A stretch of 64,000 bases of DNA from Pelotomaculum schinkii (GTDB lineage Bacteria > Bacillota > Desulfotomaculia > Desulfotomaculales > Pelotomaculaceae), in the NCBI RefSeq assembly GCF_004369205.1, contig NZ_QFGA01000001.1, positions 1,426,001 through 1,490,000 of the forward strand, given 5' to 3'. The notes beneath the pieces were generated by a model that did not search any database, was not told the origin of the DNA, and saw only the letters and a program-made list of their open reading frames with translations. Shown here piece after piece: positions 9,312 to 29,722 of this stretch. Position 1 is the stretch's first letter. The number at the start of each line of letters is the position of its first letter. The translations under genes and the position numbers were made by a program.

Positions 9312-9687
9312 TGACTGCTCCCCTTTACTTCAATTTCAGCTCCCGCAGCAAGCATCTCCATCGGCAGGAGGAAAACCAGGCGATGCGGGTCCGGTTTCAA
9401 CCACACCCGGCGCGCCGGTGCCGGACTTGGGAACTAATTATGATTTTCAATCAGAAAATACAAATGAAAATGAGAACCTGATTTTTACATTCACTTTCAC
9501 GCCGGGCAGCGCCTGCCTAAAAATTGATGAAACAATGGTATAGACCACGGTTTACGAAATGATATCGACCAATATTACAGGCCGGTCCGAACATGAACAT
9601 GTTTGCAGCAGCTGCTTTTATGGTGGCCTTTATGGATGTTGGTTTTTCTGATTTTCGGGTGTTAAACCCAGATACGCTATGTTTCAG

Positions 9688-9743
9688 ATTAATTCGCCCC
9701 TGCATTTTTTAGGATTCGCTCTGCGAACTGAACAGCTGTACAG
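9688..9743 (-). repeat. dispersed repeat family 2, copy A
   Basis: Read on the minus strand it gives CTGTACAGCTGTTCAG, then AGAGCGAATCC, then AAAATGCAGG and GCGAATT. The same ordered blocks occur at 45761-45812 on the plus strand, showing a shared element rather than chance. Confidence 0.75.
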
Positions 9744-9754
9744 TTTTTCAAGGA

Positions 9755-9787
9755 AAGGAAGCAAAAGAACCGTCCCCCTGCTTCCTT
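9755..9787. repeat. dispersed palindromic repeat family 1 (GGGACGGTT), copy 1
   Basis: GGAAGCAAAAGAACCGTCC followed by CCCTGCTTCC: outer arms GGAAGCA/TGCTTCC surround the core AACCGTCCC. Related copies are at 43792-43850, 44804-44862 and 47751-47779. Confidence 0.8.
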
Positions 9788-11398
9788 CTAGCGGACAAAC
9801 ACCATTTTATTAAACGGCAGCGGCACACCGCTTCCTATACCCTGCATGGTAAAAAACAGGTTTACCTGGCCGTTGTGAGCGTAGTACCAGTTTGGATAAT
9901 ACAGCGGCAGGGTGGGCATTTCCCGGGCATATAGCTCCTGGACCCGGCCGACCAGTTCCCGGCGCTTTTCTTGATCCATTTCGGCAAGCTGCTGTTTTAA
10001 AAGGCTGTTAAGCTCTTCGCTTTGCTCGTACCTGGCGCTGTTAAACCCCTTGGCGATGATGGCTTTGTTTAAATTTTCGGGATCCCCGCCCAGCCCGCCA
10101 TGGCCGCTTAAGGCCAGGTCAAATTTATTTTCCAGGACGCGGTTGTCCAGGGTCTTGGCCTCCAGACTGCGTAGGTTGATCTTGATGCCGGCTTGCTCCA
10201 GTTGTCCCTTAATAAACTCGCCCTCACGTTCGCCGGGGGCCCCCTGCATGGTGGAACCGCTGCCGCTGACCAACAGTTCCAGCTCCAGCGTCTGGCCGTC
10301 CTTCTCAAAATAGCTGCCTTTTTTGACGTAACCCAGCCCGGCCAAAAGCTCTGCCGACTTGCCGGGGTCGTAGGAGTACTGTCCGTCAAGTCGCGGGTTG
10401 TACCAGGCGTTGTCCGGCGGCAAAAGCCCCGGACTGCCTGCCAGGCCGTACCCCCGCAGGCAGGTATTGACCAGCGCCTGACGGTCGATAGCGTAAGCCA
10501 GGGCCTGACGAAACTCTTGACTGTCCAGAGGCGCCTTCTGGTGGTTGATCACCATTTTGGCCACCCAGTCATGCGAGGATTCCAGGCATTTGAATCCTTC
10601 CTTCTCCAGCTCTTGAGCCATCTCCGGCGGTATCTGGGCCACACCGGCTTGCTTTTGCCGCAACGCCGCGGCCGACACTTCCCCGCCTACCTTGACGAAC
10701 TTCAACTGCTTGATCCCGGGGGCGCCCTGGTAATACTGCTCGTTGGCCTCGTAGAGGTATGTACCCTGCTCCTTGTTATAATCTACCAGCTTATAAGGCC
10801 CGGTCCCGGTCAAAGCTTCTTTTTGTTGAAACTGCCGGGGCTCCTGGACGTCTTTCCAGATATGCTCGGGAAGCACCGGCAGAGTACCCCCGACCAGCTC
10901 CAAAAACGGGGCGTAAGGCTTTTCCATGTACATTTTGACGGTGTATTCGTCTAATGCTTCCACATCCTTGACAACGCCGGTGTCAACCCACTGATAAGGA
11001 TGCTTTTTGGTGTAGTTGATGGTGAAGGCAACGTCCCCGGCTGTGAACTTCTGACCGTCGTGCCAGGTAACGTCCTTACGCAACCGGAACAGGTAGGCAT
11101 CCTCGTCTTTTAGGTACTCCCAACTCTCCGCCAGTGCCGGTATGTAGCCGCCGGCATCTTTCCAGACCAGGGTGTCGAAGATAAAACTCATCCGCACATA
11201 ACCCGGACCGCGGGCATAATGAGCGTAAGGCGATGGAAAACCCCAATCCCCGGTCGGATCGGCTATGGTATAAGTACTTGCCTCGCCTCCCGATTCCTTT
11301 ACTCCTTTTTCTCCGCAGCCGGCCGTCACAAGGACATAGGCGGCAAGGACCAGCAAGCAGCCCAGCACCTTCAATACGCGCTTCCGTTTTTTTAACAT
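9788..11398 (-). CDS. ABC transporter substrate-binding lipoprotein, family 5 (peptide/nickel)
   Basis: A 536-residue SBP_bac_5 lipoprotein. Signal peptide residues 1-27 end in a lipobox, VTAGC, so the cysteine is lipidated and the protein is tethered outside the membrane. Family signatures: YKFRLRKDVTWHDGQ-like block (LRKDVTWHDGQKFTAGDVAF), PYAPFLELVGG, LPEHIW, the LTGTGPYKLVDY block and FRQALAYAIDR. Ligands of this family range from oligopeptides to nickel chelates; none can be assigned. ATG follows GGAGCG. It is the first gene of the importer unit and sits behind a leader containing a strong terminator hairpin. Confidence 0.92.
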   Translation of the reverse strand: MLKKRKRVLKVLGCLLVLAAYVLVTAGCGEKGVKESGGEASTYTIADPTGDWGFPSPYAHYARGPGYVRMSFIFDTLVWKDAGGYIPALAESWEYLKDEDAYLFRLRKDVTWHDGQKFTAGDVAFTINYTKKHPYQWVDTGVVKDVEALDEYTVKMYMEKPYAPFLELVGGTLPVLPEHIWKDVQEPRQFQQKEALTGTGPYKLVDYNKEQGTYLYEANEQYYQGAPGIKQLKFVKVGGEVSAAALRQKQAGVAQIPPEMAQELEKEGFKCLESSHDWVAKMVINHQKAPLDSQEFRQALAYAIDRQALVNTCLRGYGLAGSPGLLPPDNAWYNPRLDGQYSYDPGKSAELLAGLGYVKKGSYFEKDGQTLELELLVSGSGSTMQGAPGEREGEFIKGQLEQAGIKINLRSLEAKTLDNRVLENKFDLALSGHGGLGGDPENLNKAIIAKGFNSARYEQSEELNSLLKQQLAEMDQEKRRELVGRVQELYAREMPTLPLYYPNWYYAHNGQVNLFFTMQGIGSGVPLPFNKMVFVR

Positions 11399-11746: not shown

Positions 11747-13453
11747 CTAAGGTAAGGACCGCATATATTGCAGTAGAACTTCGTAATCTATATTCTCCAC
11801 AAACCTCTTATCCCTGGCTTCCTTTCCGGACAGCCGCATGATGTTAACCTTGTCACCTTCAGCAGGAGATTCCAACTTGAGCCTTTTTTCCGGATACCTG
11901 GAGTAACTGCAAATGAGACTTCCTCCCAGGGCATGAAACTTGCCGAAATCTCCCCACTGGTTGGCTACGGCCAGGTGCATCTGCTCCCCCAGTCTGGCCT
12001 CCCAGATAAACTTGCTCTCGCAGTCTCCCCAAAGGGCTGGCACACAGAGCAGGTCCGTACCCAGTTTAGCTAAAGCATCAGCGCTCTCGGGAAACATCAG
12101 GTCGCAGCCGGCCAGCATACCGACCCTGCCGAAGGGAAGATCAAAGGCAGGGGCCGCCCCTTCTCCCGCTTCAGCCCATTTTTGATCATAGGTCGACAGA
12201 TGGATTTTTCTGTATTTCCCCTCTACTCCGTTGGGGCCGATCAGGACACAGCTGTTATAGAATTTTCCGGCGTGTCTTTCCGCCATCCCCAGGACAATAA
12301 AAATCTTTTTTTCCTCTGCCTTCCGGGTAAACGCTTTCGTCGCAGGACCGGGTATTTCTTCACACCACTTCGCCGCCTCCCGCCGCTCAAAAATAATTCC
12401 CGTGGCAGATAATTCCGGGAGGATAATCAGGTTAAGTGTAAAGCCCTCAGCTGCAGCCATAGCTGCGGCCTCATCGATAAGCTTAAGCATCTTCTCCGTG
12501 TTCGCCGAAGGCTCCCGGGATACAGGCCGGAATTGCAGGGTAGCGACCGTAAAGTCCGCGGGTTCCGGCAACCCGAGCAGAAAAGAAGGGTTAAAATGAG
12601 AAAAGGTATCCAAAGATATGTCGGCGTAACAATGAGGCCGCCTGCGGCCCAGGATATCTTCCGCCGCCGATGAAATAAACTTGCCGTTTTCAAGGGGCAG
12701 CGTACCGTAAACAATACTGTCATCCATTGAGCTAAACTGCCTGACCGCACCGCCGCCGGTATCAATAATAAAAGACTCCGCCGAACGGCAATCCATGCTC
12801 TTATCCTTGCCCGTCCGGTTGCAGGCCAGTACGTAAATCCCGTTTTCCGCCGCCCGCGCCCGCCAAAATTTTTCCGGATTTTGATGGTCGGGAGGCCAGT
12901 TGGCCGGCACGAGCAGGAGCCGGGCTCCTTCCAGGGCAGCTACCCTGGCCGGTTTATAGGAATAGGCGTCAGCGCAAATCATTACCCCCAACTTACCGAA
13001 CTCCGTCTGCGCCACCAATATGGGAAGGTTGCCCCTGGCAGCCCACAGGTTTTCCCTGAAGGCCGGCGCCACCTTGCGATGCCTGCCTAAAACACGTCCT
13101 TTTGGCCCGATTAATGCGGCCGCATTATAAAATATGCCTGTCCCGGGAGCCACCTCCGGCAGACCAATACATATGTAGCATTCATACTTTTTCGCAATCC
13201 GGCCAAAGGCTCTGGTTGTAGGGCCGGGAATGGTTTCCATCAATGGGGCAATATCGTCCCTGCTTTCAAACGCATAGCCGGCGGTAGCCAATTCTGTGTT
13301 CAAGATAATCCGCGCTCCGGCTCCGGCAGCCATTTCATTTAAGGTCAATAATTTAGCAAGGTTTTTCTTCTTATCCTTCCAGTGGATAGCCGCATGGACC
13401 AGCGCTACTTTTACTTCTTCTCCGCATTTTCCCTGTTCATCCTCTTTGTGCAC
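11747..13453 (-). CDS. tandem carbon-nitrogen hydrolase (two nitrilase domains fused)
   Basis: A 568-residue protein with two full nitrilase-superfamily domains. Domain 1 (about residues 13-280): Glu in LNTELATAGY, Lys in GRHRKVAP, Cys in MICADAY. Domain 2 (about 310-550): Glu in LPELSATG, Lys in YRKIHL, Cys in LAGCDLMFPE. Both Glu-Lys-Cys triads are present, so both halves could be active. The superfamily hydrolyses amides, N-carbamoyl compounds or nitriles; the substrate is unknown. GTG start follows AAAGGATGG. It is the last gene of the riboswitch-led operon, 22 bases after the repeat protein. A role on corrinoid side-chain amides is only a guess. NAD-synthetase-type amidase is less likely because no synthetase domain is attached. 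Confidence 0.88.
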   Translation of the reverse strand: MHKEDEQGKCGEEVKVALVHAAIHWKDKKKNLAKLLTLNEMAAGAGARIILNTELATAGYAFESRDDIAPLMETIPGPTTRAFGRIAKKYECYICIGLPEVAPGTGIFYNAAALIGPKGRVLGRHRKVAPAFRENLWAARGNLPILVAQTEFGKLGVMICADAYSYKPARVAALEGARLLLVPANWPPDHQNPEKFWRARAAENGIYVLACNRTGKDKSMDCRSAESFIIDTGGGAVRQFSSMDDSIVYGTLPLENGKFISSAAEDILGRRRPHCYADISLDTFSHFNPSFLLGLPEPADFTVATLQFRPVSREPSANTEKMLKLIDEAAAMAAAEGFTLNLIILPELSATGIIFERREAAKWCEEIPGPATKAFTRKAEEKKIFIVLGMAERHAGKFYNSCVLIGPNGVEGKYRKIHLSTYDQKWAEAGEGAAPAFDLPFGRVGMLAGCDLMFPESADALAKLGTDLLCVPALWGDCESKFIWEARLGEQMHLAVANQWGDFGKFHALGGSLICSYSRYPEKRLKLESPAEGDKVNIMRLSGKEARDKRFVENIDYEVLLQYMRSLP

Positions 13454-13475
13454 ACAATTCCATCCTTTCAGATAC

Positions 13476-14795
13476 TCATACTACATTTTCTTTTTCTAAA
13501 AAGCCCGGCTTTTTTGTGCAAGACTTTCGATAAAAAAGCAAACTTATGATAAGAATAACTGCTGCAGCGCCAATAAACCATAAAAGGGCGCCATGGAGTT
13601 TGCCATCCGATTTCAATTTTAACAGTAATATTTCGCTTCCGGCGCTTTTCTCAATTCCTTTTTTCCCCGCCACGATATAGCCGCCGTCTTTAGACTGCAA
13701 AATAGCGTAACCGCTGTTGCCGCCGGTACCATCTACTGTTTTCTCCCAAGCAAGGCCGCCGTTTTTATCTGTTTTAACCACGTAAAGATCGTAGCCACCC
13801 TCCGCAGATTCTTTCTTACCCGTCAGGATATAACCGCCGTCTTTCGCTTGACTGACAGAATAGAACGAACTTACGCTGTTGTTTCCGTATGTATTTTCCC
13901 AAAGCTCATTTCCATCGGGGTCAACTTTTATCAGAACCGCCGCAAATCCGCCGCCCTGGTCGCCGGTAATCTCCTTCTCACCGGCAATTAAAAACCCGCC
14001 GTCACCGGCTTTTACTAAAGACCAGCCGTAGTCCGAACCTTTGCCCCCGTATGTTTTCTGCCAGAGCATTTTTCCGTCGCCATCCGTCTTGAGAAGATAC
14101 AGGTCAGGATTGCCGGCCCCAAAGGCCTCGGCATTCCCCGCCACAAGATACCCTCCGTCATCAAGCTGCAAAACAGCATAGCCGCAGTCGGAACCCGCCC
14201 CGCCGTAGGTTTTTTCCCAGATCTCATTACCGTTAAGATCCAATTTAATCAGGTAGACATCATAGATCCCCGCGCCAAAGGACTCCGTTCCCCCGGCAAT
14301 AATGAAACCGCCTTCCTTTGTCTGCTGAACTGACCAGACATAGTCGCAGCGCTCTCCGCCGAATTCCTTTTCCCAGATCATTTCACCTTTCTCATCCGTC
14401 CTCACCACGTATACATCATGGTCATACCCGTGCCTGGATTTGGTCTCGCCGGCAATGATGAAACCGCCCTCGCTGGTTTCTTTGACGCAATGACTGTCAT
14501 TGTAGCCATTGCCCCGGTATGTCTTCAGCCATAACCTGTTACCGCCGCCGTCGTACCTGGCGAGGAAAACGTCGGGCCCTTCCTGGCCTGCTTCTATCCA
14601 GCCGGATGCAACATAGCCTCCATCTTTTGTCTGTTCTACAAAATGGGCCTCTCCTCTTTCAAAAGTATTGGCCCACTCTACCTCAGGAGTTTGAGCGGAT
14701 GCTGCTATTGACCTCTCAGCAAACAACAATCCTTGCACGGTAAAGCAAAAGGCCAGTGAAAATATAAAATACAGCAGCATTCTTTTCATTTTCAC
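13476..14795 (-). CDS. exported repeat (beta-propeller-like) protein with C-terminal membrane anchor
   Basis: A 439-residue protein: signal peptide (FIFSLAFCFTVQGLLF), then about seven repeats of roughly 53 residues with the pattern W-x-K-TYGG-x-GSD-x-GY-x-V-x-Q-x-DGGYI-x-AG, then a C-terminal membrane helix (LLWFIGAAAVILIISLLFY) and a basic tail. Such repeats form propeller-like surface domains; the anchor holds it outside the membrane. It lies between the ECF S component and the tandem nitrilase, 15 and 22 bases away, and therefore belongs to the B12-riboswitch operon. A ligand-binding or scaffold role at the surface is inferred. GTG start follows AAGGGGGT. Confidence 0.82.
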   Translation of the reverse strand: MKMKRMLLYFIFSLAFCFTVQGLLFAERSIAASAQTPEVEWANTFERGEAHFVEQTKDGGYVASGWIEAGQEGPDVFLARYDGGGNRLWLKTYRGNGYNDSHCVKETSEGGFIIAGETKSRHGYDHDVYVVRTDEKGEMIWEKEFGGERCDYVWSVQQTKEGGFIIAGGTESFGAGIYDVYLIKLDLNGNEIWEKTYGGAGSDCGYAVLQLDDGGYLVAGNAEAFGAGNPDLYLLKTDGDGKMLWQKTYGGKGSDYGWSLVKAGDGGFLIAGEKEITGDQGGGFAAVLIKVDPDGNELWENTYGNNSVSSFYSVSQAKDGGYILTGKKESAEGGYDLYVVKTDKNGGLAWEKTVDGTGGNSGYAILQSKDGGYIVAGKKGIEKSAGSEILLLKLKSDGKLHGALLWFIGAAAVILIISLLFYRKSCTKKPGFLEKENVV

Positions 14796-14810
14796 AAAGC
14801 ATTGACCCCC

Positions 14811-15440
14811 TTATAAATTTTCCAGATACTGCACATCCATTTTTTTGTGGAAGTATCTCAATATCTTTATAGTCTGAGAACCCAGGGCGGCGCAAAAGAG
14901 AAGATTGCCTGCGGCGCGCATGGAATCAAAACTGAAACCTGCCACCCAGAGGAGAAAATAAGTCTTAAACGTTAACGGGTTCATAAAGGTACTCCACTGC
15001 CAGATGTCCATGACTGCTCCGTAAAGGTAGCCCCAGAAAAAACAAAGCACGGCCAGGGTTTTATTACCTGCCCCGGGGAACAAAACCTTGACCGTCGCCC
15101 CGGAGACACCCACCATACCCCAGCAAAGCATCTGCCAGGGCGTCCAGGGACCCTGCCCATTGAAAAAATTGGAAATTAAAGGTGTCATTGCGCCTACAAA
15201 GAAGCCGACCCGCGACCCGAATACAAACCCCGTTATCTCCACCAAAAACATGGTGGGCTGCAAAAAGAGCAGGGCAACGCCCGTTACCGCCCTGCCTGCT
15301 GCGCACAAAGCAGCCAGCACGGCAATGACGGATACCTGCCGCGCGTTAAAGTCTTTTTTTTTCTCCATGCCGAACATAAGCAGGGCAATGGAAAGAATGC
15401 CGATCAAGGTCATGTAAAGGCCCCAATTCGCTCCCATCAT
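14811..15440 (-). CDS. ECF transporter S component (cobalamin-type, predicted)
   Basis: A 209-residue integral membrane protein with about six helices. The motif ARQVSVIAVLAALCAAGR and the segment VEITGFVFGSRVGFFVGA, then GPWTPWQMLCWGMVG, match substrate-binding subunits of energy-coupling-factor transporters, of the subgroup often associated with cobalamin riboswitches. It directly follows the fused ATPase gene and completes a T-A-A-S set. Ligand cobalamin is predicted from the riboswitch and the DUF4430 partners, not from residues. ATG follows GGAGTG. Confidence 0.85.
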   Translation of the reverse strand: MMGANWGLYMTLIGILSIALLMFGMEKKKDFNARQVSVIAVLAALCAAGRAVTGVALLFLQPTMFLVEITGFVFGSRVGFFVGAMTPLISNFFNGQGPWTPWQMLCWGMVGVSGATVKVLFPGAGNKTLAVLCFFWGYLYGAVMDIWQWSTFMNPLTFKTYFLLWVAGFSFDSMRAAGNLLFCAALGSQTIKILRYFHKKMDVQYLENL

Positions 15441-15459
15441 ACTTTCACTCCTGCTTTTT

Positions 15460-17151
15460 TTAAGCTATACTTACCTTACCGGCGGCAAGAGGATAGATTT
15501 TTTCTTTCGCCTCGGCTACAGTGAGCACTCCATCGCAGATACCCCGGGTCATTTTGCTTAGCTGTGGAGCAAAAAAAACTGATTTGGCCAGCACATCGTG
15601 CTTTTCTCCATCCCTGACAATTCTCCCCGAGAACATCATCACCGCCCTTGCGGCAAATTCGGCGGCGAACTCCACATCGTGGGTTATTACAATTACCGTG
15701 CTGCCTTTTTCTGTCTCTTTTTGTAAAAATCCGCCCAATTCCGCTTTCAGGCGAAAATCAACCCCTCTGGTCGGCTCGTCCAGAATAATGAGCCGGGGTC
15801 CGGTGACCATGACCGAAGCCAGGGCAACTCTTTGCCGCTCTCCGCTGCTCAAGTCCCGGGGGTTCGTCTTGCGGTACTTCGACAGATGAAATTTTTCCAG
15901 TATTTCATTGACAACAGATAAGTCTTTTAAGCCAAAATTCTTTAAGGTAAAGAGCAGCTCTTCTTCTACGGTGTCCTGGAAAAGATAATCATTGGGATTT
16001 TGGGACAGGTAGGCGGTAAACCTTCTGATCTCTTTAAACCCGTTCTTGCTTATATCCTTGCCCAGCACCTCGACCCTGCCCCGGTCCGGCTTAAGCATGC
16101 CGGTTATCTGTTTGAGCATGGTCGACTTGCCCGCGCCGTTTTCGCCCAGGACTGCTACAAATTCTCCTTCTTTTATATCAAGGCTGACGCCTTTTAAAAC
16201 CTGCCGCCCCCCTGGATAGGCGAACCACAGGTTTTTCATGCTGACTGCGCTCTGACGCTCCATCAAATCTCCAGCGCGGACACTTTTATGGCATGCGCCG
16301 GATTGGTTCCCGCCGGCAGTTTGATTTTCTTTTAGATAAGACCGTAAAAGCTTCCTGCCTTCTTTTACCGTAATGGGCACAGAGGAGACATTCAGGCCGG
16401 CAAAAAACCTGGACACCGGCGGTACAAAAGGCATGCCTCCTTTTATTGTTTTACGGGCCACCTCTTGAGCGCTCCCGTCACATGAAATTTCGCCGTTTTC
16501 CATAAACAGAACCCGGTCCGCTAAATGAAAACAGCGCTCCAGCCGCTGCTCAACCATGATCACCGTAAAGCCCATTTCCTCATTAAGCCGCTTGGCCAGA
16601 TTCAGGATGTCTTCCGCCGAGACGGGATCCAGCTGGGAAGTGGGTTCATCAAGGATGAGCGCGTGAGGCTGCATGGCCAGAACGGAAGCCAGCGCCAGCT
16701 TTTGTTTCTGACCGCCGGAGAGATTGGCCGCAAATGCCTCTCTGATCTGCTCCAGATTCATGAAACAGATTACCTCCGCAACCCGCCGCAGCATCTCTTC
16801 ATTACTTAAGCCCAGATTCTCCAGGCCAAAGGCAATTTCCGCCTCAACATGGGTTTGCACGATCTGCTTCTCCGGGTCCTGGAAGACCATACCTACTTCC
16901 CTGGCCAGCTTTTTGCGGTTCATGGTCCTGATGTCCTTCCCTTTAAAGAAAACCTTGCCTCCGATCCTGCCCCCATAAAAATCAGGGGCCAGTCCCGCCA
17001 ATACCCTGGCCAAAGAGGACTTGCCCGAACCGGAGCCGCCCGCCACCAGAATGAATTCCCCTTCCTCGATCTCCAGATTTATATTTCTTAATGCGGCCCG
17101 ATCCGTTTCAGGATAAAAATAGGTTAAATTTTCGACTTTAAACAGCGGCAA
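15460..17151 (-). CDS. ECF transporter fused double ATPase (EcfA-EcfA')
   Basis: A 563-residue fusion of two CbiO/EcfA-type ATPases. Domain 1: Walker A GGSGSGKSS, the ECF-typical GMVFQDPEKQIVQ at the Q-loop, signature LSGGQKQK, Walker B ALILDEPTSQLDP. Domain 2: GENGAGKST, YLSQNPNDYLF, LSSGERQR, LIILDEPTRGVD. The QDPE/QNPN Q-loop forms are characteristic of ECF rather than classical importers. Start is TTG at 17151 after AGGGGTGG; a GTG at 17160 is the alternative. It overlaps the EcfT gene and is followed by the S component 19 bases later. Confidence 0.92.
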   Translation of the reverse strand: MPLFKVENLTYFYPETDRAALRNINLEIEEGEFILVAGGSGSGKSSLARVLAGLAPDFYGGRIGGKVFFKGKDIRTMNRKKLAREVGMVFQDPEKQIVQTHVEAEIAFGLENLGLSNEEMLRRVAEVICFMNLEQIREAFAANLSGGQKQKLALASVLAMQPHALILDEPTSQLDPVSAEDILNLAKRLNEEMGFTVIMVEQRLERCFHLADRVLFMENGEISCDGSAQEVARKTIKGGMPFVPPVSRFFAGLNVSSVPITVKEGRKLLRSYLKENQTAGGNQSGACHKSVRAGDLMERQSAVSMKNLWFAYPGGRQVLKGVSLDIKEGEFVAVLGENGAGKSTMLKQITGMLKPDRGRVEVLGKDISKNGFKEIRRFTAYLSQNPNDYLFQDTVEEELLFTLKNFGLKDLSVVNEILEKFHLSKYRKTNPRDLSSGERQRVALASVMVTGPRLIILDEPTRGVDFRLKAELGGFLQKETEKGSTVIVITHDVEFAAEFAARAVMMFSGRIVRDGEKHDVLAKSVFFAPQLSKMTRGICDGVLTVAEAKEKIYPLAAGKVSIA

Positions 17152-18053
17152 TTTTTCCACCCCTCGCTCAAAATAAGCGGTACGGACATATAAAAAAGAA
17201 CGGCAGCCAGGGTAATGATTGTTGGCATACCTTTAATCAAAACATCTGCCTCAGGATAAAAGGTGTATTGACCACACCCGTATTGCAAACCCCAGATGGC
17301 GGCAAACAAAGCCAGGAAGCTCCCCCCCGCGCAGAGGATATCTCTGGATCTCAGCATATAACGGCTGTAAACCGAACGCTTACCGCTTCCAAAAGCCCTG
17401 GCCTGCATGGATTCGGCAATCTCCATGGAATCTTCCATGGAGGATAAAAGCATAACATTATAAAGATAGGAGTATTTCTTTACTTTCTTCCACAGGCTTC
17501 CCTCATCGAAATCAACGCCGCGAAACTGCAGCACTTCTTTTATCCTTTTTAAGTCCCGCACCATGGTGGGAAACATTCTCGTGGCTAAAACGATCATCAG
17601 AACGGATTGGCCGGCCACTTTGGAAAAGAGATTCAGGATATTGTCCGGGTTGATCATCAGGTTATAAAGACAGAATATGCTCATGATTACCAGCAGCCTG
17701 ATCCCCGAAACAGCTCCATAATACAGGGCTTCCATTGATATATCGAGCTTGCCCAGATACGGCGCCTGCGGGCCGTGCCAGATGATCGTGGAGCCGGCCC
17801 TGATTACCAGGGGGTTGATAAGCATGATCATAAGCATCAAAAAGACGCCTGCTTTCAAAAACCCCTCCCAGGCCTCCATGCCGTCTACCTCTTTGATTAA
17901 AAGGGCAAGAAGAAAAAACAAGGCTAAAAGATAAAGGGGATTTGCATACAGCAGACTGAGCACAAGGAGCACCAAAAGGTATGCCAGGACTGCAGCAGGG
18001 TGAAAGCTCTGCAAGAAAAGGCCCTTTTCCTGATAGTAAAGCTTGTCGAACAA
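17124..18053 (-). CDS. ecfT: ECF transporter T component (EcfT/CbiQ-like)
   Basis: A 309-residue membrane protein with an N-terminal amphipathic start (FDKLYYQEKGLFLQSFHP), 5-6 helices and two coupling-helix blocks with the family Ala-Arg-Gly type signature: ATRMFPTMVRDLKRI and SMQARAFGSGKRS. Such subunits link the two ATPases to the S component. The start is taken as TTG at 18053, after AAAGGGGCGG; the open frame runs on upstream over the DUF4430 gene but without a suitable site. It ends inside the start of the fused ATPase gene. Confidence 0.88.
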   Translation of the reverse strand: MFDKLYYQEKGLFLQSFHPAAVLAYLLVLLVLSLLYANPLYLLALFFLLALLIKEVDGMEAWEGFLKAGVFLMLMIMLINPLVIRAGSTIIWHGPQAPYLGKLDISMEALYYGAVSGIRLLVIMSIFCLYNLMINPDNILNLFSKVAGQSVLMIVLATRMFPTMVRDLKRIKEVLQFRGVDFDEGSLWKKVKKYSYLYNVMLLSSMEDSMEIAESMQARAFGSGKRSVYSRYMLRSRDILCAGGSFLALFAAIWGLQYGCGQYTFYPEADVLIKGMPTIITLAAVLFYMSVPLILSEGWKNCRCLKSKI

Positions 18054-18118
18054 ATTTGCCGCCCCTTTACTTTTTATGTATATCTTCAATGAAACCGGTA
18101 TCAAGGCAGGGCGTTCTT

Positions 18119-18838
18119 TTACTGGGCCAGCTCTTCCCATTGGGGCTGGGGCTGATCCATGCTGTTGCTGTACCACCAGATCACTTTATCTCCTGCTTTT
18201 ACCGGGTGTTTATCAGCCATATGCATGGGAACATCACCGTTGACTGAATACATCCAGCCTGACACGCCACTGTTGGCCTGCCCGCTGATGGAATAAACAA
18301 AATCGGGCCAGGTCGGCGACGTGGTATAAGGGATGCCGGTGGCATCAAGGACGCCTAAGGCGGTAATGCCCCATTTATTGTCCTTTCCCACAACAACCTG
18401 TCCAGCCCTGTAAAGTAATTCGCTATTTTTCCCCACAATGGCAATCCACACCGCGCAGCCGTTATCAGGCGCCGCAGCCGCCACAGTATCACCCGCGGTC
18501 TGGACAGTTGCAGCGGCATCGTCCGAAGTCTGGGTAACCGCCGCTTTTGTCTGGGAATCGCTGGTCGACGCAGCCGCCTGCTGTTCCGGAGCCGGATCGC
18601 CTTGCCTTGTTTCATCAGCAGGCTGGACTTTACCCGGCTCAGGAGAAGCAAGGCCATCACCCGCGTCTGGCCTGTTCTGGTTTGCCGGACTGCCCTGTTC
18701 TTCAGCATTTATGCCGGTGCTTTCCGTCTGCCGGGACTGCTGGCCGGAACTAAACACTTTGTCCATGCAAAGGGCCGGCACGATTACCCCGGCCAGAATA
18801 ACCAGCAAAGCAATAAGATAAAAGGCCTTTCGCTTCAT
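18119..18838 (-). CDS. membrane-tethered DUF4430 (transcobalamin C-terminal-like) protein
   Basis: A 239-residue protein: N-terminal membrane helix or uncleaved signal (residues 6-24), a low-complexity Gln/Ala/Pro/Asp-rich linker (about 30-125), and one DUF4430 domain (about 128-239) with ELLYRAGQVVVG, NKWGITALGVLDATGIPY, ISGQANSGVSGWMYSVNG, AGDKVIWWYS. DUF4430 is the fold of the C-terminal beta-domain of animal intrinsic factor and transcobalamin. The domain closely resembles the one in the SLH protein encoded upstream. Placement just before ecfT suggests it passes corrinoid from the surface binder to the S component (inference). ATG follows GAGGTG. Confidence 0.85.
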   Translation of the reverse strand: MKRKAFYLIALLVILAGVIVPALCMDKVFSSGQQSRQTESTGINAEEQGSPANQNRPDAGDGLASPEPGKVQPADETRQGDPAPEQQAAASTSDSQTKAAVTQTSDDAAATVQTAGDTVAAAAPDNGCAVWIAIVGKNSELLYRAGQVVVGKDNKWGITALGVLDATGIPYTTSPTWPDFVYSISGQANSGVSGWMYSVNGDVPMHMADKHPVKAGDKVIWWYSNSMDQPQPQWEELAQ

Positions 18839-18976
18839 AAAATCACCTCATATTAAAAAAGCGACACATTTGCGCACCATTTTCGGGGTATCGCTTTATG
18901 TGCTGAGCAGTTGTTTTCAGAGCAGAGAGCGGAGTAAGACCCGCTCCCGCGCAAAAAACCAGTCAATTAGCTCAAA

Positions 18977-21742
18977 TCATAATGTTCCTGCCTGTTGGAG
19001 CTTTTGCAGCACACGGTAGAGCATAACCGTGGCTTCCGCCCTGGTAGCATTGCCAAGCGGCATGAACTGTCCGTTTTCCCGGCCGAGCATTAAACCATCC
19101 CTTACCACCAGGGCTACCGGCAAGCAGGCCCAGGGAGAAATATCTGCGGCATCGTTAAAACCTCCCAGCAATTCAGCTGCGTCTGCGTCGCTGAGGGTCA
19201 TGTCCAGGCCGTTTTTTGCCATCAGTCTTATGATCATGGCCGCCATTTGTTCACGGGTAACCGGCTCGTCCGGCGCAAAGCTGTTTTCGGACGTCCCGTT
19301 GATTAAACCGGCGTTAGTAGCTGCGCCTACCGTGCCCCTGTACCAGGCGCCGGCAGGTACATCGCTGAAGCGATCCGCTCCGCCGGGATCGGCCGTCAAT
19401 CCAGTCATACGGACCAGGATAGCAGCAAATTCGGCCCGTGTGACCGTGACCTCCGGCGCAAATTCATTGTCGCCTACACCGGCCACATACCCTTTTGCGG
19501 CCATGAATTCAATCTCCTTCTGCGCCCAATGTCCGGCTATATCTTTGAAGCTCTTCACCTCAAGTGGGGAAATTGATTCCATCAAGGCGTACTTGCTGAA
19601 GTGTTCGGTTTTAAAGGTGATGGTATTGCTGTCAGGATCGTATGTGCCGCCCACTTCTTCCCACATTTTGCTGTCTTCATTGTACCGGTAGGCCATTAAC
19701 TTGCCATCAGCCGCTGTCTCCCGTAAATCTTCTGGTACTGGCAGCAGCACCGTGCATCCAGGAAATTGTTCAATTTTTTGCTGCGTGCCGTCCTCATTAA
19801 CGGCCAGAACGTTTAGCTCATAAATATCGCCGGCCAGTCTAAATTTGACCCCAAAGGACTCCATTAGACTTTGCGCGTCCTTACTGCTTAATTTCTGCGC
19901 TGTCAGCTGCAGCTGTACTGTACTTGCAGACGTTAACTCAGGTACTTTGAGGCTGTCTGTGGATAAAACGAACTGCACTCCCTGGACGGTAACGGCCAGC
20001 GGTTTATCTGTGTTTATTATTTTGGTCAACTGGTCCTTTGACAGGGCCAGTGAAGTTTGAGTATCATCCGCCTGTAAGGCAACCAAGCCGGCAGCGTAGG
20101 CCTTTTGGATAGCGGTGTTTAAGACGGTATCGCTCACCGGGGCAGGCAGGTTGGTGGATTGGTCACCGGAACCCCCGGAAGAAGTCTGTTTTCCAAGCTC
20201 ATCCCATTTGGGAGGCTGCTGATTCATGCTTTTGCTGTAATAAAAGATGATCTTGTCATTATTCTTAATATTGTATTTATCAGCGCCGACACTTGGGCTT
20301 GAACCGTTAACGACATACATCCAGCCGGCCATACCGCTGTTTGCCTGTCCACCGATTGAATTTACCAGATAGCCGTAAGACCATGAAGAAGTCTGGTAGG
20401 AAATGCCGGAGGCGTCCAGAGCACCCAAGGCCGTGAGACCCCATTTATTTGTCTCAGCCACGGCGACATCAGAAGGGCCGTATAAAAGCTCACCATTTAC
20501 ACCCACAACGGCCAGGCCCACGGTCTTTTCTGTCCCACTATTCCCACCCGAAGAATTTACGGTCAAATCAGCTGAAGCCGTAAGTCCACCGTAAACAGCA
20601 TTCACTACGGTCTGCCCGGCTTTTAAAGCGGTGACCAGGCCGCTGCTGTCGACACCAGCAATGCTGCTGTCGGCGACAGACCACTGCGCGTACTGCGTTA
20701 CATCAGCTGTCCCGTAAGTATTCTGCCAGACCGCTTCCAACTGCTTTGTATCGCCTACCTTCAGGGTCGCGCTGGAAGGGTCAAGATAAAACTGGGTATC
20801 CAATAAGTTATAAGCGCTAAGGGCCCAGATGGCATCCATGCCGTTCTTTGACGTGCCAAAGCTCCCGTCATCGTTAAGGGCGTTATTCATCATATAGTCA
20901 ACGGGAGTTTTCCCCCCACTGCTTTCCCATGAGGCAGGATCCAGCCCCCTTACCTTTAAGGTCACAATCACTTCCGAGGTGTCTATAACCGGATCGTCCC
21001 AACCTCCAACATTGAAGCTTCCGTCAGCTTGTTGCTGATTCTTCATCCAGCTGCACCCGTCATTGATGGCGTTTTGTGTTTGACTGTCACTTTTGCCCGG
21101 GTCTAAATAATTCAGTGCACGCACTGCTTCAGCCGTGGTCATAAAGTCGGGATAAAAAATTCCGCCAAATGTACCGCCAAAACTTCCATAGTTCTGGTCA
21201 CCGGCTGTTGTATTCTGTGACCCTAAAATACAGTCCTTAGCGTAGTCTATATTTATTTCACCAACAGAATCCACCCTGCCTAAAAGATCATAGGCCGGGA
21301 TATCGCTGTACAGGTTGCTGTCAAAACCGGCGCTGCTCTGCCTGTTTTGCAAAATCTGCACTAATTGGTCAGCCAAATCATCTCGTCCCAACGCTTTTGC
21401 AGCCGCCAGATCCTGAGCCAGGAGCTTGGCGGAAGCTTTGGACGGGTCTGCGGCGTTTGTTATGTCCCCGGATATTGCGCTTATTACCGCATCTTTAAGA
21501 TTCTCACCATTATATTCCCAGGTACTGACATCAACATCTGCCTGGGTTAACACAAAAAGGGCATAAGAACCCACTCCGGCGTCGGAGTTGTTTATCCCGT
21601 TTGTCGTGTAGTCGTTGTAGAGAAACTGCACGGCGCAATTTGCCGGCGAACCCGCCCCCCCTGCCGCATTAGCGCTGACCACGGGTATTAACAGCATTAT
21701 GGTCATCAACACAGTAAGCCACAAGCTTGGCTTTTTAAACAT
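18977..21742 (-). CDS. S-layer-anchored intrinsic-factor-like protein: alpha/alpha barrel + Big_2 + DUF4430 + 3 SLH
   Basis: A 921-residue exported protein. After a signal peptide (to about residue 27, ending SANAAG) comes an alpha/alpha repeat region (about 30-330) of the prenyltransferase/terpene-cyclase-like type that also forms the cobalamin-binding barrel of intrinsic factor: GSFGGTFGGIFYPDFMTTAE, QQADGSFNVGGW, NDDGSFGTSKNGMDAIWALS. Then a Big_2 Ig-like domain (LKVGDTKQLEAVW, GLVTALKAGQTVV), a DUF4430 domain (ELLYGPSDVAVAE, NKWGLTALGALDASGISY, SGMAGWMYVVNG), a linker domain, and three SLH repeats near the C-terminus (FKDIAGHWAQKEIEFMA, FSDVPAGAWYRGTVGAA, FNDAADISPWACLPVA). Domain order matches intrinsic factor plus a wall anchor. 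ATG at 21742 follows AAGGGG. It is the first gene after a cobalamin riboswitch. Confidence 0.88.
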   Translation of the reverse strand: MFKKPSLWLTVLMTIMLLIPVVSANAAGGAGSPANCAVQFLYNDYTTNGINNSDAGVGSYALFVLTQADVDVSTWEYNGENLKDAVISAISGDITNAADPSKASAKLLAQDLAAAKALGRDDLADQLVQILQNRQSSAGFDSNLYSDIPAYDLLGRVDSVGEINIDYAKDCILGSQNTTAGDQNYGSFGGTFGGIFYPDFMTTAEAVRALNYLDPGKSDSQTQNAINDGCSWMKNQQQADGSFNVGGWDDPVIDTSEVIVTLKVRGLDPASWESSGGKTPVDYMMNNALNDDGSFGTSKNGMDAIWALSAYNLLDTQFYLDPSSATLKVGDTKQLEAVWQNTYGTADVTQYAQWSVADSSIAGVDSSGLVTALKAGQTVVNAVYGGLTASADLTVNSSGGNSGTEKTVGLAVVGVNGELLYGPSDVAVAETNKWGLTALGALDASGISYQTSSWSYGYLVNSIGGQANSGMAGWMYVVNGSSPSVGADKYNIKNNDKIIFYYSKSMNQQPPKWDELGKQTSSGGSGDQSTNLPAPVSDTVLNTAIQKAYAAGLVALQADDTQTSLALSKDQLTKIINTDKPLAVTVQGVQFVLSTDSLKVPELTSASTVQLQLTAQKLSSKDAQSLMESFGVKFRLAGDIYELNVLAVNEDGTQQKIEQFPGCTVLLPVPEDLRETAADGKLMAYRYNEDSKMWEEVGGTYDPDSNTITFKTEHFSKYALMESISPLEVKSFKDIAGHWAQKEIEFMAAKGYVAGVGDNEFAPEVTVTRAEFAAILVRMTGLTADPGGADRFSDVPAGAWYRGTVGAATNAGLINGTSENSFAPDEPVTREQMAAMIIRLMAKNGLDMTLSDADAAELLGGFNDAADISPWACLPVALVVRDGLMLGRENGQFMPLGNATRAEATVMLYRVLQKLQQAGTL

Positions 21743-22028
21743 TTTGTTACCCCTTGTATACAAATCTTCCAACCTCCCTTAAGTTTATTTTGTATCAAGC
21801 TGATCTGCCATGTGCCAGGGTCCATTCCAGTGTTTTCTTGGGTTCGATTTCGTCACCTATTAGTTTCACCTCCTAAACTTCCTGAATAATGTCAATATCC
21901 ATGATAATGCTGCATCAAGGTGTGTAAAAGTATGGGTTTGAAGGCTCTATATGTAGTTGCTAATTATTTTAAAAAGGATACCTATTCATCACTGAACAGG
22001 TAAAACGAAAGAAGGAGATATCAACATG

Positions 22029-22063
22029 AAAAACCCGGCCTCATCCGTTAAGAGGCCGGGTTT
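22029..22063 (-). terminator. expression-platform terminator of riboswitch 1
   Basis: A perfect 12-bp stem (22031-22042 with 22052-22063) followed on the minus strand by T5. It lies between the riboswitch aptamer and the SLH gene, so B12 binding would be read out by premature termination. Confidence 0.85.
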
Positions 22064-22129
22064 TTCAAGGTACATACCTTAATAAACACAGCTAAAGCCC
22101 TGTCCTTTCCACGGAAGGCGGCGCTATTG

Positions 22130-22289
22130 ACCAGGCAGGTCTCCTGACTTGTGGATCACAGCATGCCTCCCGCCTTCCCGGATTATAAATCCAGTGGCAT
22201 TTTGGGAGTCGCTCCCCACTTACAGTGGCCAGACCGTCCGGGATTTTCACCCGGTTCCCTTTTCACCCCCGCTATGCGGAGGAACCTGG
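22130..22289 (-). promoter_or_regulatory. cobalamin riboswitch 1 (controls surface binder/ECF operon)
   Basis: Minus strand carries GGAACCGGGTG, AATCCCGGACGG, the B12-box region TGGCCACTGTAAGTGGGGAGC, ATGCCACTGG, GGGAAGGCGGG and AAGTCAGGAGACCTGCCT, in the order and spacing of Rfam cobalamin (AdoCbl) aptamers. It is followed by an intrinsic terminator and then the SLH protein gene. Confidence 0.95.
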
Positions 22290-22311
22290 ACAAATTTCTT
22301 AAATTATCCAC

Positions 22312-22340
22312 ATTTAAACACTAATCAATTATTATGTCAA
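22312..22340 (-). promoter_or_regulatory. promoter of riboswitch 1 transcript
   Basis: TTGACA (22335-22340) and TTAAAT (22312-22317) on the minus strand, 17 bases apart, about 20 bases before the aptamer. Confidence 0.7.
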
Positions 22341-22442: not shown

Positions 22443-22982
22443 TTACCGTTCAATACCATCACGGGCAGGGACATCCTTGGTGTAATAATGCTTTATTTCC
22501 AGCATTTCCGTTACCAGGTCCGCAGCTTCAATAATTTCCTGCGGAGCATACCTGCCGGTAAATATTACTTCAACCTGATCAGGTTTGGAGTTGATAATTT
22601 CGAGCATTTCTTCAATTGTAATGAGGTTAAAGAAATGAGCGGTATTTATTTCATCGAATACGATTATATCGTATGCACCTGAATTCATTGCTTTTTTCGC
22701 TTTTTCAAGCCCTTCCCGGGCCATTTTAACGTCCTCTTCCAGAGGTGGATTTTGCACGTGAATAAATGTGTCCTTGCCGTATTGCTCAATAGTTATATAA
22801 GGCTTGCACATCTCCGCCGATTTTAACTCGGAGTACTTTTGACCTTTCATAAACTGGCCAATATACGTTTTTAACCCGCGGCCCATGGCACGGAAAGCCA
22901 GACCCAGGGCAGCCGTCGTTTTACCCTTGCTGTTGCCGGTATAAACCTGCACATATCCTTTTTCCAAACCAGTTAAAACCAT
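22443..22982 (-). CDS. cobO: cob(I)alamin adenosyltransferase, CobA/CobO/BtuR type
   Basis: A 179-residue P-loop corrinoid adenosyltransferase. The N-terminal YTGNSKGKTTAALGLAFRA is the ATP-binding P-loop of the CobA family (GNGKGKTT type); later blocks FMKGQKYSELK, IIVFDEINTAHFFNLI and VIFTGRYAPQEIIEAADLVTEM are family-typical. It transfers adenosine from ATP to reduced corrinoid, making adenosylcobalamin or its precursors. ATG at 22982 follows AAAGGGGG. It stands alone behind its own cobalamin riboswitch and terminator (23013-23255). Confidence 0.95.
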   Translation of the reverse strand: MVLTGLEKGYVQVYTGNSKGKTTAALGLAFRAMGRGLKTYIGQFMKGQKYSELKSAEMCKPYITIEQYGKDTFIHVQNPPLEEDVKMAREGLEKAKKAMNSGAYDIIVFDEINTAHFFNLITIEEMLEIINSKPDQVEVIFTGRYAPQEIIEAADLVTEMLEIKHYYTKDVPARDGIER

Positions 22983-23051: not shown

Positions 23052-23109
23052 CTTTGATGTCAAAATTATGACAATCAAATCACGCGCCTTTCCCTGGAAA
23101 GCGCTTAAT

Positions 23110-23255
23110 TTAAAAGACAGGTTTCCTGACTCATGGGTCATCGACGCTTCCGCCTTCCCGGACGACAAATATCCAGTGGCTAGTGGAAGTTACTACCCGA
23201 CATACAGTGGCCGGACCGTCCAGGATTCTCACCTGGTTCCCCGTTCATATTTTGT
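23110..23255 (-). promoter_or_regulatory. cobalamin riboswitch 2 (controls cobO)
   Basis: Minus strand: GGGGAACCAGGTG, GAATCCTGGACGG, CGGCCACTGTATGTCGGG, TAGCCACTGG, CCGGGAAGGCGGAAG, GAGTCAGGAAACCTGTC. All conserved cobalamin-aptamer blocks are present, with a weaker peripheral helix than the other two copies. Confidence 0.93.
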
Positions 23256-23286
23256 TTAGCAATCAGTTGGTTTCATTAATATTTGC

Positions 23287-23320: not shown

Positions 23321-24103
23321 TCAATTATAGGAATGCGGTATCAAGCTTTCTGATTCCGCGCAACCTTCGTTGCCGCTACAATATTCCCAATTCTTAGCAT
23401 TCCCCACGACAGCCCTGGCAACACTGCTCCTTGCCGCGTCATAAACTCTGAAAAGAATCTCGGCGCGCCTGGGATTCTTATACACCTTCCAATCCCTGCT
23501 GGTGAGGCACTCTTTACCGTTATGCTTGATAAATCCTTCGACATCCTCCACGGGAATGCCCAGAAATATGCCTACCTCATGAGGGCATATCTCCTTAAAC
23601 CTTTTCTTTAACATATGGAGCTTCTGCTCCAGGGTCACTGCTTCCCCATAACCCATTCTTCTTAAGAATTGCAGACTACGCTCGTTATTAACAAACAACT
23701 CTAGCATTGCGCTCTTGTAAAAGAGCACCAGCACATTCCCGTCCCCTTCTTTAAGCACGAGGTATTGCAGTTTGAGTTCTTCACATACCTCCCTGCCATA
23801 CCGCTGCCATAAAAACATATGACCTTTAACTTTACTATTAAAGGCGATAAGAGAAGAAGGTTTTTTGCCCATTACCGTTGGGGCAGCTCCAAAGGCAATG
23901 AAAGCAGCTATATACTCTTTTCCTTCCATCCTGTTTAAGGCTTCTATAAACTGCAGCTTAAGCTCTTTGTCCAATAAAGACATCCCCCGTTGCAGCCTTT
24001 TTTCATCAAGAAGCCCTTTCCCGGCGGCGGTCATTCCTAGCTCACCAGGAGTTTCTTGCAAGGTTAATCCTGCAGCAACACGCTTGACACCTGTTTTCTT
24101 CAT
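23321..24103 (-). CDS. DUF3793 family protein
   Basis: A 260-residue protein of the DUF3793 family. The diagnostic part is KLHMLKKRFKEICPHEVGIF, LGIPVEDVEGFIKHNG and DWKVYKNPRRAEILFRVYDAA; the first half includes a conserved FGAAPTVMGKKPSSLI block. The family is common in anaerobic Firmicutes, often next to ferrous-iron genes, and its function is unknown. The ATG at 24103 follows GGGAGGGA; the frame extends further upstream without such a site. It is divergent from the DtxR-feo operon, and the Fur box at 24249 lies between the two, so it is probably iron-regulated. Confidence 0.82.
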   Translation of the reverse strand: MKKTGVKRVAAGLTLQETPGELGMTAAGKGLLDEKRLQRGMSLLDKELKLQFIEALNRMEGKEYIAAFIAFGAAPTVMGKKPSSLIAFNSKVKGHMFLWQRYGREVCEELKLQYLVLKEGDGNVLVLFYKSAMLELFVNNERSLQFLRRMGYGEAVTLEQKLHMLKKRFKEICPHEVGIFLGIPVEDVEGFIKHNGKECLTSRDWKVYKNPRRAEILFRVYDAARSSVARAVVGNAKNWEYCSGNEGCAESESLIPHSYN

Positions 24104-24248
24104 TCTTCCCTCCCGCTTCCTTATCCATTCGCCGTCGCCCCAACTTCCTTTTGTAGCAAGATCCACTTCCGCGTGTCCGACGCCGGCATTCTCAAAAATT
24201 ATTCTTGACAAAGAGGCAAATAAAAGTTTATCTTTAGAATAGGATATT

Positions 24249-24267: not shown

Positions 24268-24335
24268 CTTTATTTTTAATCTGAGAGTTAGGCTTGCTTA
24301 ACCTTTCTCTGCCATTTATTCAAGGAGGTGTCGTC

Positions 24336-25052
24336 ATGACCGGGACCTTTGCCATATCTTCGTCTATGCAGGACTACCTGGAAGCAATACTGAACCTGTC
24401 CGAAAAAGACGACGGTTTGGCCAGGATTACTGATATAGCCAACATGTTGAGCATCGCCAAAGCAAGTGTATCCCAGACTATCAGCAGCCTGAAAGACCTG
24501 GGGCTGGTAGCTCAGGAAAGATACGGACCGGTTGAATTAACCTGCGCAGGAAGAGAGTTGGCGATTAAAGTACGCCACCGGCACCGAACATTGAGAAGAT
24601 TTCTCGTTGAAGTGCTGGGTGTCGATCCTAACATTGCCGAAAAGGACGCCTGCCTGATGGAACATGTGGTCAGCCAGCAAACCCTGGAAAAGTTTATGGA
24701 ATTTCTGGAGACAACCGGTAAACCGGAAGGAGCCGCTGGCGCTGGCATCTCCTCCGGGGCGGGCGCCATGAAAAACCCGATAGGGGATGAAGGAAGGGAG
24801 GCAAAAATATTGAGATCGGTTAATACCAGGGCTCTCAGCGAGCTGCAAACCGGAGAAAAGGGTAAAGTGCTGCGCACTACGGCGAAAGGGCCTGTTCACC
24901 GCCGGATCCTGGAAATGGGTGTTACACCGGGGGCAGAAATCTTCGTGAAGGGCGTGGCCCCTCTAGGAGATCCTATTGAGGTATTGGTGAGAGGCTATCA
25001 TCTGAGCCTCAGAAAAGAAGAAGCCGCTACTATCTTTGTGGAGGTGGTGTAG
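24336..25052 (+). CDS. DtxR/MntR family metal-dependent regulator with FeoA domain
   Basis: A 238-residue regulator. N-terminal winged helix-turn-helix (YLEAILNLSEKDDGLARITDIA, SIAKASVSQTISSLKDLGLV), dimerisation/metal part with RHRHRTLRRFLVEVLGV, DACLMEHVVS and a Gly/Ala-rich linker, then a FeoA/SH3-like domain (LQTGEKGKVLRTTAKG, ILEMGVTPGAEIFVKG, VLVRGYHLSLRKEEA). ATG at 24336 follows AAGGAGGTG at ideal spacing. Its position first in the feo operon suggests it senses Fe(II) or Mn(II) and controls iron uptake. Its stop and the feoA start are 2 bases apart. Confidence 0.92.
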   Translation: MTGTFAISSSMQDYLEAILNLSEKDDGLARITDIANMLSIAKASVSQTISSLKDLGLVAQERYGPVELTCAGRELAIKVRHRHRTLRRFLVEVLGVDPNIAEKDACLMEHVVSQQTLEKFMEFLETTGKPEGAAGAGISSGAGAMKNPIGDEGREAKILRSVNTRALSELQTGEKGKVLRTTAKGPVHRRILEMGVTPGAEIFVKGVAPLGDPIEVLVRGYHLSLRKEEAATIFVEVV

Positions 25053-25054
25053 CC

Positions 25055-25300
25055 ATGGGTGGCAGCGTTTTACCCCTTGGATTTCTCCAGGTAGGCAGGG
25101 ACGCCGTCGTCAGGGAACTCGGCAGCGGCAGGAATTTAGCCCAGCGATTGTCGGAAATGGGTATTGTCCGCGGGACCAGGTTAAGCATTATCAAAAACGA
25201 TATGGGCGGCCCGCTGATTATTTCTGTCGGGGATGGGCGCCTGGCTATCGGCCGGGGTATGGCTTTGAAGATTTTCGTAGAAGAAGCCAGTAAAGCATAA
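25055..25300 (+). CDS. feoA: ferrous iron transport protein A
   Basis: An 81-residue SH3-like FeoA protein: GRDAVVRELGSGRNLAQRLS, EMGIVRGTRLSIIKND, ISVGDGRLAIGRGMALKIFV. FeoA is a small cytoplasmic partner of the FeoB iron transporter. Its ribosome binding site GGAGGTGGTG is inside the end of the regulator gene. Confidence 0.93.
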   Translation: MGGSVLPLGFLQVGRDAVVRELGSGRNLAQRLSEMGIVRGTRLSIIKNDMGGPLIISVGDGRLAIGRGMALKIFVEEASKA

Positions 25301-25352
25301 TTTTTTTCAAAAAAGTGTTAGTCTCGACTAACTATCAGGAGGTGGTTTCCAT

Positions 25353-27747: not shown

Positions 27748-27765
27748 GAAAAAAATGAATAACTA

Positions 27766-27930
27766 TCCAGGAATCTCCGGTCATGCCGGGGATGAAAAGG
27801 GAACCGGGTGCGAATCCCGGACGGTCCGGCCACTGTAAGTGGGGAGCGGCTCCCGATATGCCACTGGGTTTCGACACCTGGGAAGGCGGGAAGTACGCTG
27901 TGAGCCACGAGTCAGGATACCTGCCTGAAT
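27766..27930 (+). promoter_or_regulatory. cobalamin riboswitch 3 (controls exported cobaltochelatase)
   Basis: Plus strand: GGGAACCGGGTGCGAATC, CCGGACGGTCCGG, GCCACTGTAAGTGGGGAGC, ATGCCACTGGG, GGGAAGGCGGGAAG, GAGTCAGGATACCTGCC. All conserved blocks of the cobalamin aptamer occur in order. It is followed by a terminator-like hairpin and then cbiK. Confidence 0.95.
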
Positions 27931-28021
27931 AGTGTTGTACTACGTGTTGCCTTCCATAGAAAGGCCGGTGGTGTAAATGAGCATATTTCCGTGGCAATTA
28001 AATTGCTCATAATGATCATTA

Positions 28022-28052: not shown

Positions 28053-28148
28053 TTTACCCCTACAGCGAGAGAAATTTGCGGAAAAATTTTGGTTTCGCGC
28101 GTACCGGCAGTTTCTATGGATAAAACCCGGGGGGTGGCAAAGCTGCTA

Positions 28149-29712: not shown

Positions 29713-29722
29713 GCTAAAAACT

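Follow-up and report, generated by a model that had tools for sequence, protein, structure and literature searches.

Pelotomaculum schinkii very probably carries a B12-repressed operon with which this Gram-positive anaerobe of the Desulfotomaculaceae catches corrinoids at its surface and imports them. The operon lies in a window of 64,000 nucleotides (assembly GCF_004369205.1, contig NZ_QFGA01000001.1, positions 1,426,001 to 1,490,000; all positions below are counted within the window) and forms one leftward unit (22304-11747, minus strand) made up of a cobalamin riboswitch, a hairpin and seven genes. These encode a surface protein with a toroid, a DUF4430 domain and S-layer homology (SLH) domains, a solo DUF4430 protein, the T, fused ATPase (A-A) and S components of an energy-coupling factor (ECF) transporter, an anchored β-propeller and a tandem nitrilase. 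A preliminary reading of the letters (hereafter the sequence-only reading) had listed these elements, and Pfam, NCBIfam, Rfam and open reading frame analysis recovered all of them where it had placed them, apart from the start of the T gene: its frame can be read from 18176, but the proteins of relatives have 309 amino acids and the start is therefore probably at about 18053.

In the mechanism that we propose, low cytoplasmic coenzyme B12 would let the riboswitch permit transcription, and the S-layer-bound protein, with its toroid and its β-grasp DUF4430 domain connected by an immunoglobulin (Ig)-like joint, would bind corrinoids at the wall. Delivery would probably be helped by a DUF4430 domain tethered to the membrane beside the transporter; the CbrT-type ECF transporter would import the corrinoids, and CobA would adenosylate them inside, where an amide related to corrinoids is the probable substrate of the tandem nitrilase.

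A conserved operon behind a cobalamin riboswitch

The aptamer at the head of the operon (22117-22304, minus strand, as are all operon features below) matches RF00174 with 137.9 bits against a gathering score of 31.5 and covers the full model (positions 1-189), so that the leftward unit is indeed headed by a cobalamin riboswitch on its own strand. Between the riboswitch and the first gene lies a terminator-like hairpin of 16 bp with an A-tract and a U-tract (about 22066-22028), which, from sequence and folding (leader folding z −4.9), is the putative expression platform. The last six genes, from 18838 to 11747, overlap or are spaced by 15-22 bp, and a 138-bp gap, in which no strong terminator was found, separates them from the SLH gene.

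To assess how far this arrangement is conserved, the neighbourhoods of 40 relatives were fetched and annotated, giving 41 operons with that of the window. A same-strand cobalamin riboswitch lies upstream in 38 of the 41, and the other three are cut at contig ends; every operon with a visible upstream side (38/38) thus has one. It is at most 1 kb from the first carrier gene in 30 of these 38, whereas in the other eight mostly same-strand genes stand between (CbiJ, an ABC-2 pair and others), with the riboswitch about 7 kb off in two. All six named-organism loci examined for it carry the riboswitch as well. Control by coenzyme B12, with repression of the operon when it is plentiful, is therefore predicted.

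The coding part is no less stable. DUF4430 occurs in 56 of 100 relatives, and the order toroid-DUF4430-SLH, solo DUF4430, T, A-A and S recurs across families. Of 72 loci from named organisms, Moorella thermoacetica, Syntrophomonas wolfei and Desulfofundulus among them, T is present in 59 and T together with S in 52; most of the others are truncated. Since SLH-DUF4430 genes beside ECF genes recur in most of the 40 relatives and the 72 named loci, a neighbourhood survey of the kind that the sequence-only reading had proposed, the operon arrangement is not due to chance. One variant departs from it: in locus L082, a toroid-DUF4430-SLH gene stands behind two riboswitches in tandem, and the genes after it are BtuF-, BtuC- and BtuD-like, not ECF genes. 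Judging by these gene assignments, the surface protein is kept there and the importer swapped, both importers being of corrinoid type.

Another Desulfotomaculales relative, G047, has a roughly 70-kb island (C1:2078120-2152000; L179-L182) in which 11 cobalamin riboswitches accompany CobA, a second CbrT-type ECF set, DUF4430 surface proteins of up to 2394 amino acids, SLH proteins, repeat-type surface proteins and a riboswitch-controlled tandem nitrilase. ABC-2 exporter pairs (ABC_tran and ABC2_membrane) stand behind cobalamin riboswitches at L060 4177-5792, L062 5174-6765, L067, L070 and, in the genome of P. schinkii itself, L175 8590-10226; they adjoin CbiJ, CbiL or BtuFCD and are a candidate exporter of corrinoids or tetrapyrroles. 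In addition, a gene for a CbiJ-like precorrin-6A reductase seems to head the operon, upstream of the barrel genes, in L063, L067, L070 and L072, in whose genomes CbiD was not found. Its apparent retention without CbiD suggests another use for CbiJ, with the caveat that detailed reading of the CbiJ-like genes covered only L062 (by family search) and L063 (by eye).

A predicted corrinoid binder at the wall

The first gene of the operon (18977-21742) reads from an ATG at 21742 and encodes a signal peptide, the toroid, a Big_2 domain, DUF4430 (PF14478, E 1.1e-14) and three SLH domains (E 2e-36). It is one of only two DUF4430 genes in the 4.4-Mb genome, both of which are in the operon. The toroid region has no Pfam match. 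For structure prediction, residues 38-527 (20192-21661), comprising the toroid, Big_2 and DUF4430, were aligned with 28 relatives and modelled with AlphaFold2 (predicted local distance difference test, pLDDT, 91.5; predicted template modelling score, pTM, 0.72).

In a Foldseek search of this model against the PDB, ranks 1-15 are held exclusively by haptocorrin, transcobalamin and intrinsic factor (E 2e-8 to 3e-6). The alignments extend over about 500 columns, so both the toroid and the DUF4430 domain are matched, and in the same order as in the animal carriers (2pmv, 2bb5, 4kki). Domain by domain, the α domain of human intrinsic factor (2pmv_B) aligns with the model over 231 residues at 3.1 Å (VIA-align, Z 19.0), and the isolated β domain of transcobalamin (5no0, 5np4) at 2.4 Å, for 5no0 over 104 columns. 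The sequence-only reading had claimed an α/α barrel followed by DUF4430, as in intrinsic factor and transcobalamin, and had named a missing match to the intrinsic-factor barrel as grounds for giving the idea up; model and search bear out both the barrel and the domain order. Compared with the animal carriers, the bacterial protein is anchored to the wall by SLH domains and has an Ig-like domain inserted between toroid and DUF4430, although many relatives lack this domain and join the two by a short linker, which is the animal layout. On the strength of the model, the SLH protein is most likely an intrinsic-factor/transcobalamin-like corrinoid binder.

Several points weigh against this reading. 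Taken alone, the toroid fits squalene-hopene-type cyclases slightly better than the animal carriers, and because the cyclases share the toroid and score higher, the fold by itself is no proof of B12 binding. Full-length superposition gives a root-mean-square deviation of 17-20 Å, for which the inserted Ig-like domain and the uncertain domain placement in the model are probably responsible. Moreover, sequence similarity to the animal carriers is not significant: a profile of DUF4430 only reaches haptocorrin at E 0.68, and a profile of toroid plus DUF4430, run against PDB sequences, returned cyclases and Ig domains and no animal B12 carrier, so that the relationship rests on structure. Finally, a genome with de novo B12 synthesis, BtuFCD and CbiZ has no evident need of a further system, and what is bound could also be a different corrinoid or a precursor.

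The cyclase resemblance also invites a different explanation, in which the toroid would be either an enzyme outside the cell (of terpene-cyclase, prenyltransferase or glycosidase type) or a structural module of the S-layer, DUF4430 would only aid placement, and ECF-CbrT alone would import. Squalene-hopene and drimenyl cyclases are the top VIA-align matches (Z about 21), toroids of GH76 and epimerase type score as well, and the barrel-only protein of one relative (L065) matches the Pfam models Prenyltrans and SQHop_cyclase. We nevertheless consider this highly improbable, because Foldseek, which weighs the whole chain, places B12 carriers alone in its first 15 ranks, because the toroid is consistently paired with a transcobalamin-type β domain and a cobalamin riboswitch, and because it is hard to see on what terpenoid a secreted wall protein would act. 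A corrinoid binder thus remains the preferred interpretation of the surface protein.

Probable import and possible hand-over at the membrane

The transporter genes point to corrinoids by a separate route. The T component (17124-18053) is CbrV-type and belongs to the CbiQ family (E 1e-13), and the ATPase (15460-17160) is a CbrU-type EcfA-EcfA' fusion with a duplicated ABC domain (two ABC_tran stretches; TIGR04520, E 1.6e-123, two stretches); the order T, A-A, S is kept in relatives. For the S component (14811-15440), a profile built from 30 S components reaches CbrT of ECF-CbrT (6fnp_A) at E 6e-24 over profile positions 28-199, the next PDB match being at E 0.3, and the genome holds no other strong copy of CbrT. 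Characterised CbrT binds cobalamin with a Kd of 9 nM and cobinamide with 36 nM and imports both (PMC5997447). With an S component of this type, corrinoids are the likely cargo even when the riboswitch is left aside. CbrT homology and the riboswitches of the 38 operons together sustain the assignment of the ECF set to corrinoids, and capture and import of corrinoids are well supported.

CbrUVT is a predicted corrinoid ECF set in later reconstructions (PMC6593275, PMC8123684), and a close studied counterpart is ECF-CbrT of Lactobacillus delbrueckii (CbrTUV; PMC5997447, PMC6593275), whose S component is homologous over nearly its full length and which likewise has ECF T and A partners. In P. schinkii, however, the transporter sits in a dedicated operon with a fused A-A and with surface proteins, whereas L. 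delbrueckii uses one ECF module for several S components and the accessible text of these papers describes no wall binder.

How a corrinoid would pass from the wall to this transporter is less clear-cut. The solo DUF4430 protein (18119-18838; DUF4430 E 2.2e-14) has a single N-terminal membrane segment, and in other relatives the corresponding gene has a lipobox-like Cys (read by eye). In nearly all relatives the gene adjoins T or is near it. By these features the protein would stay at the membrane beside the transporter, held by a membrane segment or a lipid anchor. A function as half-binder is plausible since a single transcobalamin β domain can bind cyanocobalamin (CNCbl; 5np4), and the barrel-only protein that many relatives add may complete a split carrier at the membrane.

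The sequence-only reading had arranged these proteins into an ordered relay from the wall binder through the tethered half-binder to the ECF transporter, an order that is a reasonable conjecture at most. In its fullest version, with stations at the SLH carrier, the half-carrier and CbrT, the propeller as a further binder and the nitrilase as a new corrinoid amidase that remodels imports, we think it unlikely. The chances are much closer to even that capture and import are real and that no sequential relay exists: the DUF4430 proteins would then be independent receptors, or the solo protein a lid or docking subunit, and CbrT would take its corrinoid from solution. The nanomolar affinity of CbrT alone (PMC5997447) fits this, as do the heme transporter ECF LhaSTA, which functions without the wall receptors whose genes adjoin its own (PMC7299338), and the structure of an isolated transcobalamin β domain with CNCbl bound. 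It fits less well with an anchored solo DUF4430 protein encoded by T in nearly all relatives and with the many barrel-only proteins, which look as if a carrier had been split at the membrane. The closest working model for a relay is the heme NEAT/Isd system, including the SLH-NEAT protein with which Bacillus anthracis delivers heme to IsdC (J Bacteriol 2010, cited in PMC10327494), which, as far as the accessible account goes, also combines an S-layer binder, stations at wall and membrane, and an importer; fold, ligand and transporter family differ, and no common descent is implied.

Surface capture ahead of B12 import is also known from BtuG/BtuH of Bacteroides (PMC6143338; DUF4465, PMC13398666), which, unlike this Gram-positive operon, form an outer-membrane system of Gram-negatives. 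The propeller protein of the operon (13476-14795; NCBIfam delta_60/SBBP), with a signal peptide and a C-terminal membrane helix, appears about seven-bladed in its AlphaFold2 model (pLDDT 85.5), which is the general fold of BtuG. Its best match, however, is the CylK propeller (Z 42.9), and BtuG2 with CNCbl (8okv) follows at rank 42 (E 2e-6), no better than propellers in general, so that a kinship with BtuG is possible at most.

Ligand, tandem nitrilase and B12 metabolism

The host probably can both make B12 de novo and salvage it, as its genome encodes CbiL, D, E, T, F, G, H, J, C, CbiA, B, P and CobU, S, T, D, along with BtuFCD under another riboswitch and CbiZ. CobA/BtuR, the corrinoid adenosyltransferase (22443-22982, minus strand; PF02572, E 2e-62), is encoded next to the operon in a unit under its own riboswitch (23099-23282, minus strand; 94.4 bits). 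When only relatives of at least 90% completeness are counted, CbiD is absent in 20 of 46 with DUF4430 against 3 of 32 without it (p 0.001, uncorrected for relatedness). Overall, CbiD is present in 32 of the 56 DUF4430-bearing relatives. Where CbiD is missing, the system may be the main supply of B12; in the other relatives it would serve salvage.

In this setting the preferred ligand may be an incomplete or foreign corrinoid (cobinamide, cobyric acid or pseudo-B12), remodelled inside by the nitrilase and CobA, rather than cobalamin. This is a tentative alternative, possible and short of probable: CbrT also imports cobinamide, CobA stands next door, a tandem nitrilase lies directly behind a cobalamin riboswitch in five genomes, and CbiZ and all late synthesis genes are present, whereas the CbrT that has been characterised has a higher affinity for cobalamin than for cobinamide (PMC5997447).

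The tandem nitrilase itself (11747-13453) has two CN_hydrolase domains (E 9e-67, two stretches) and no signal peptide. The tandem form occurs in 12 of 100 relatives: four of the five genomes with the gene directly behind its own riboswitch belong to one family, in six, the window included, it is in or close behind the carrier/ECF operon, and the twelfth lies near a contig end. The triad of the first domain (E54, K127, C160) is invariant in 12 of 12 sequences. The catalytic Cys of the second is kept in only 2 of 12, for which reason a doubly active enzyme was discarded, as was a replacement of CbiZ, since the genome has CbiZ. To judge from these residues and from gene context, the protein probably works in the cytoplasm as an amidase linked to B12 regulation, its first domain active and its second degenerate; that its substrate is a corrinoid amide is a guess. 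Behind the riboswitch-tandem nitrilase pairs of L193 (3193-4662) and L195 (3212-4680) stands a large gene that, by eye, resembles a chelatase subunit of CobN/BchH type.

Other genes of the window surround the operon. Upstream of the riboswitch-cobA unit is a gene for a DUF3793 protein (23321-24211, minus strand), and divergent from it are an iron-dependent-regulator-like/FeoA gene and FeoB (24294-27407, plus strand; named by eye), which makes iron and B12 genes neighbours. Farther on, a cobalamin riboswitch precedes the gene for a CbiK cobaltochelatase that carries a signal peptide and, at its C terminus, a Cu_amine_oxidN1 domain (27752-29522, plus strand), so that a CbiK-type chelatase appears to be exported in a Gram-positive cell. 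A lone CRISPR-DR2 Rfam match (29692-29721, plus strand) has no repeat partners within 29500-30500 and is probably a relic or due to chance. Directly downstream of the operon, an oligopeptide/nickel-type ABC transporter operon (5140-11398, minus strand; a binding protein, two permeases and a duplicated ATPase, by eye) showed no riboswitch in the Rfam scan.

The core of the system had been foreseen. Burroughs, Balaji, Iyer and Aravind (2007; PMC1796856) defined the SLBB superfamily and, in the part of their paper available, reported fusions of the toroid with SLBB (DUF4430-type) domains in Desulfotomaculum, a further SLBB paralogue within these operons and CbiO/CbiQ genes; they predicted surface scavenging of B12 and suggested that animals acquired this gene type from Gram-positive bacteria. 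The operon described here agrees in its toroid followed by a transcobalamin-type β-grasp domain, its second SLBB paralogue, its CbiO-like ATPase and its CbiQ-like membrane gene. Relative to that text, it adds the riboswitch link, the CbrT assignment of the S component, SLH anchoring, the tandem nitrilase with its own riboswitch connection, and the model with its full-length fold match; the BtuFCD variant and the many carriers that also make B12 are new as well. According to the same text, key enzymes of B12 synthesis are usually missing from such bacteria; this genome departs from that rule, and 32 of the 56 DUF4430-bearing relatives have CbiD. The view that a set of this composition is uncharacterised therefore holds in part: no laboratory study of such a surface protein, and no published account of the exact set with CbrT and riboswitch, appeared in the literature searched (most subscription-journal papers and all bioRxiv preprints lay outside its scope), but the core was already predicted in 2007.

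If the binder works as predicted, it would correspond in bacteria to human intrinsic factor and transcobalamin, being built on the same two-domain plan, and the proposal that animal B12 carriers came from Gram-positive bacteria would become testable. The system would also connect a so far unassigned tandem nitrilase, as well as an importer of CbrT type, with the metabolism of corrinoids, and it would account for the way in which anaerobes with a wall (Moorella, Pelotomaculum and Desulfofundulus, for example) compete for these molecules.

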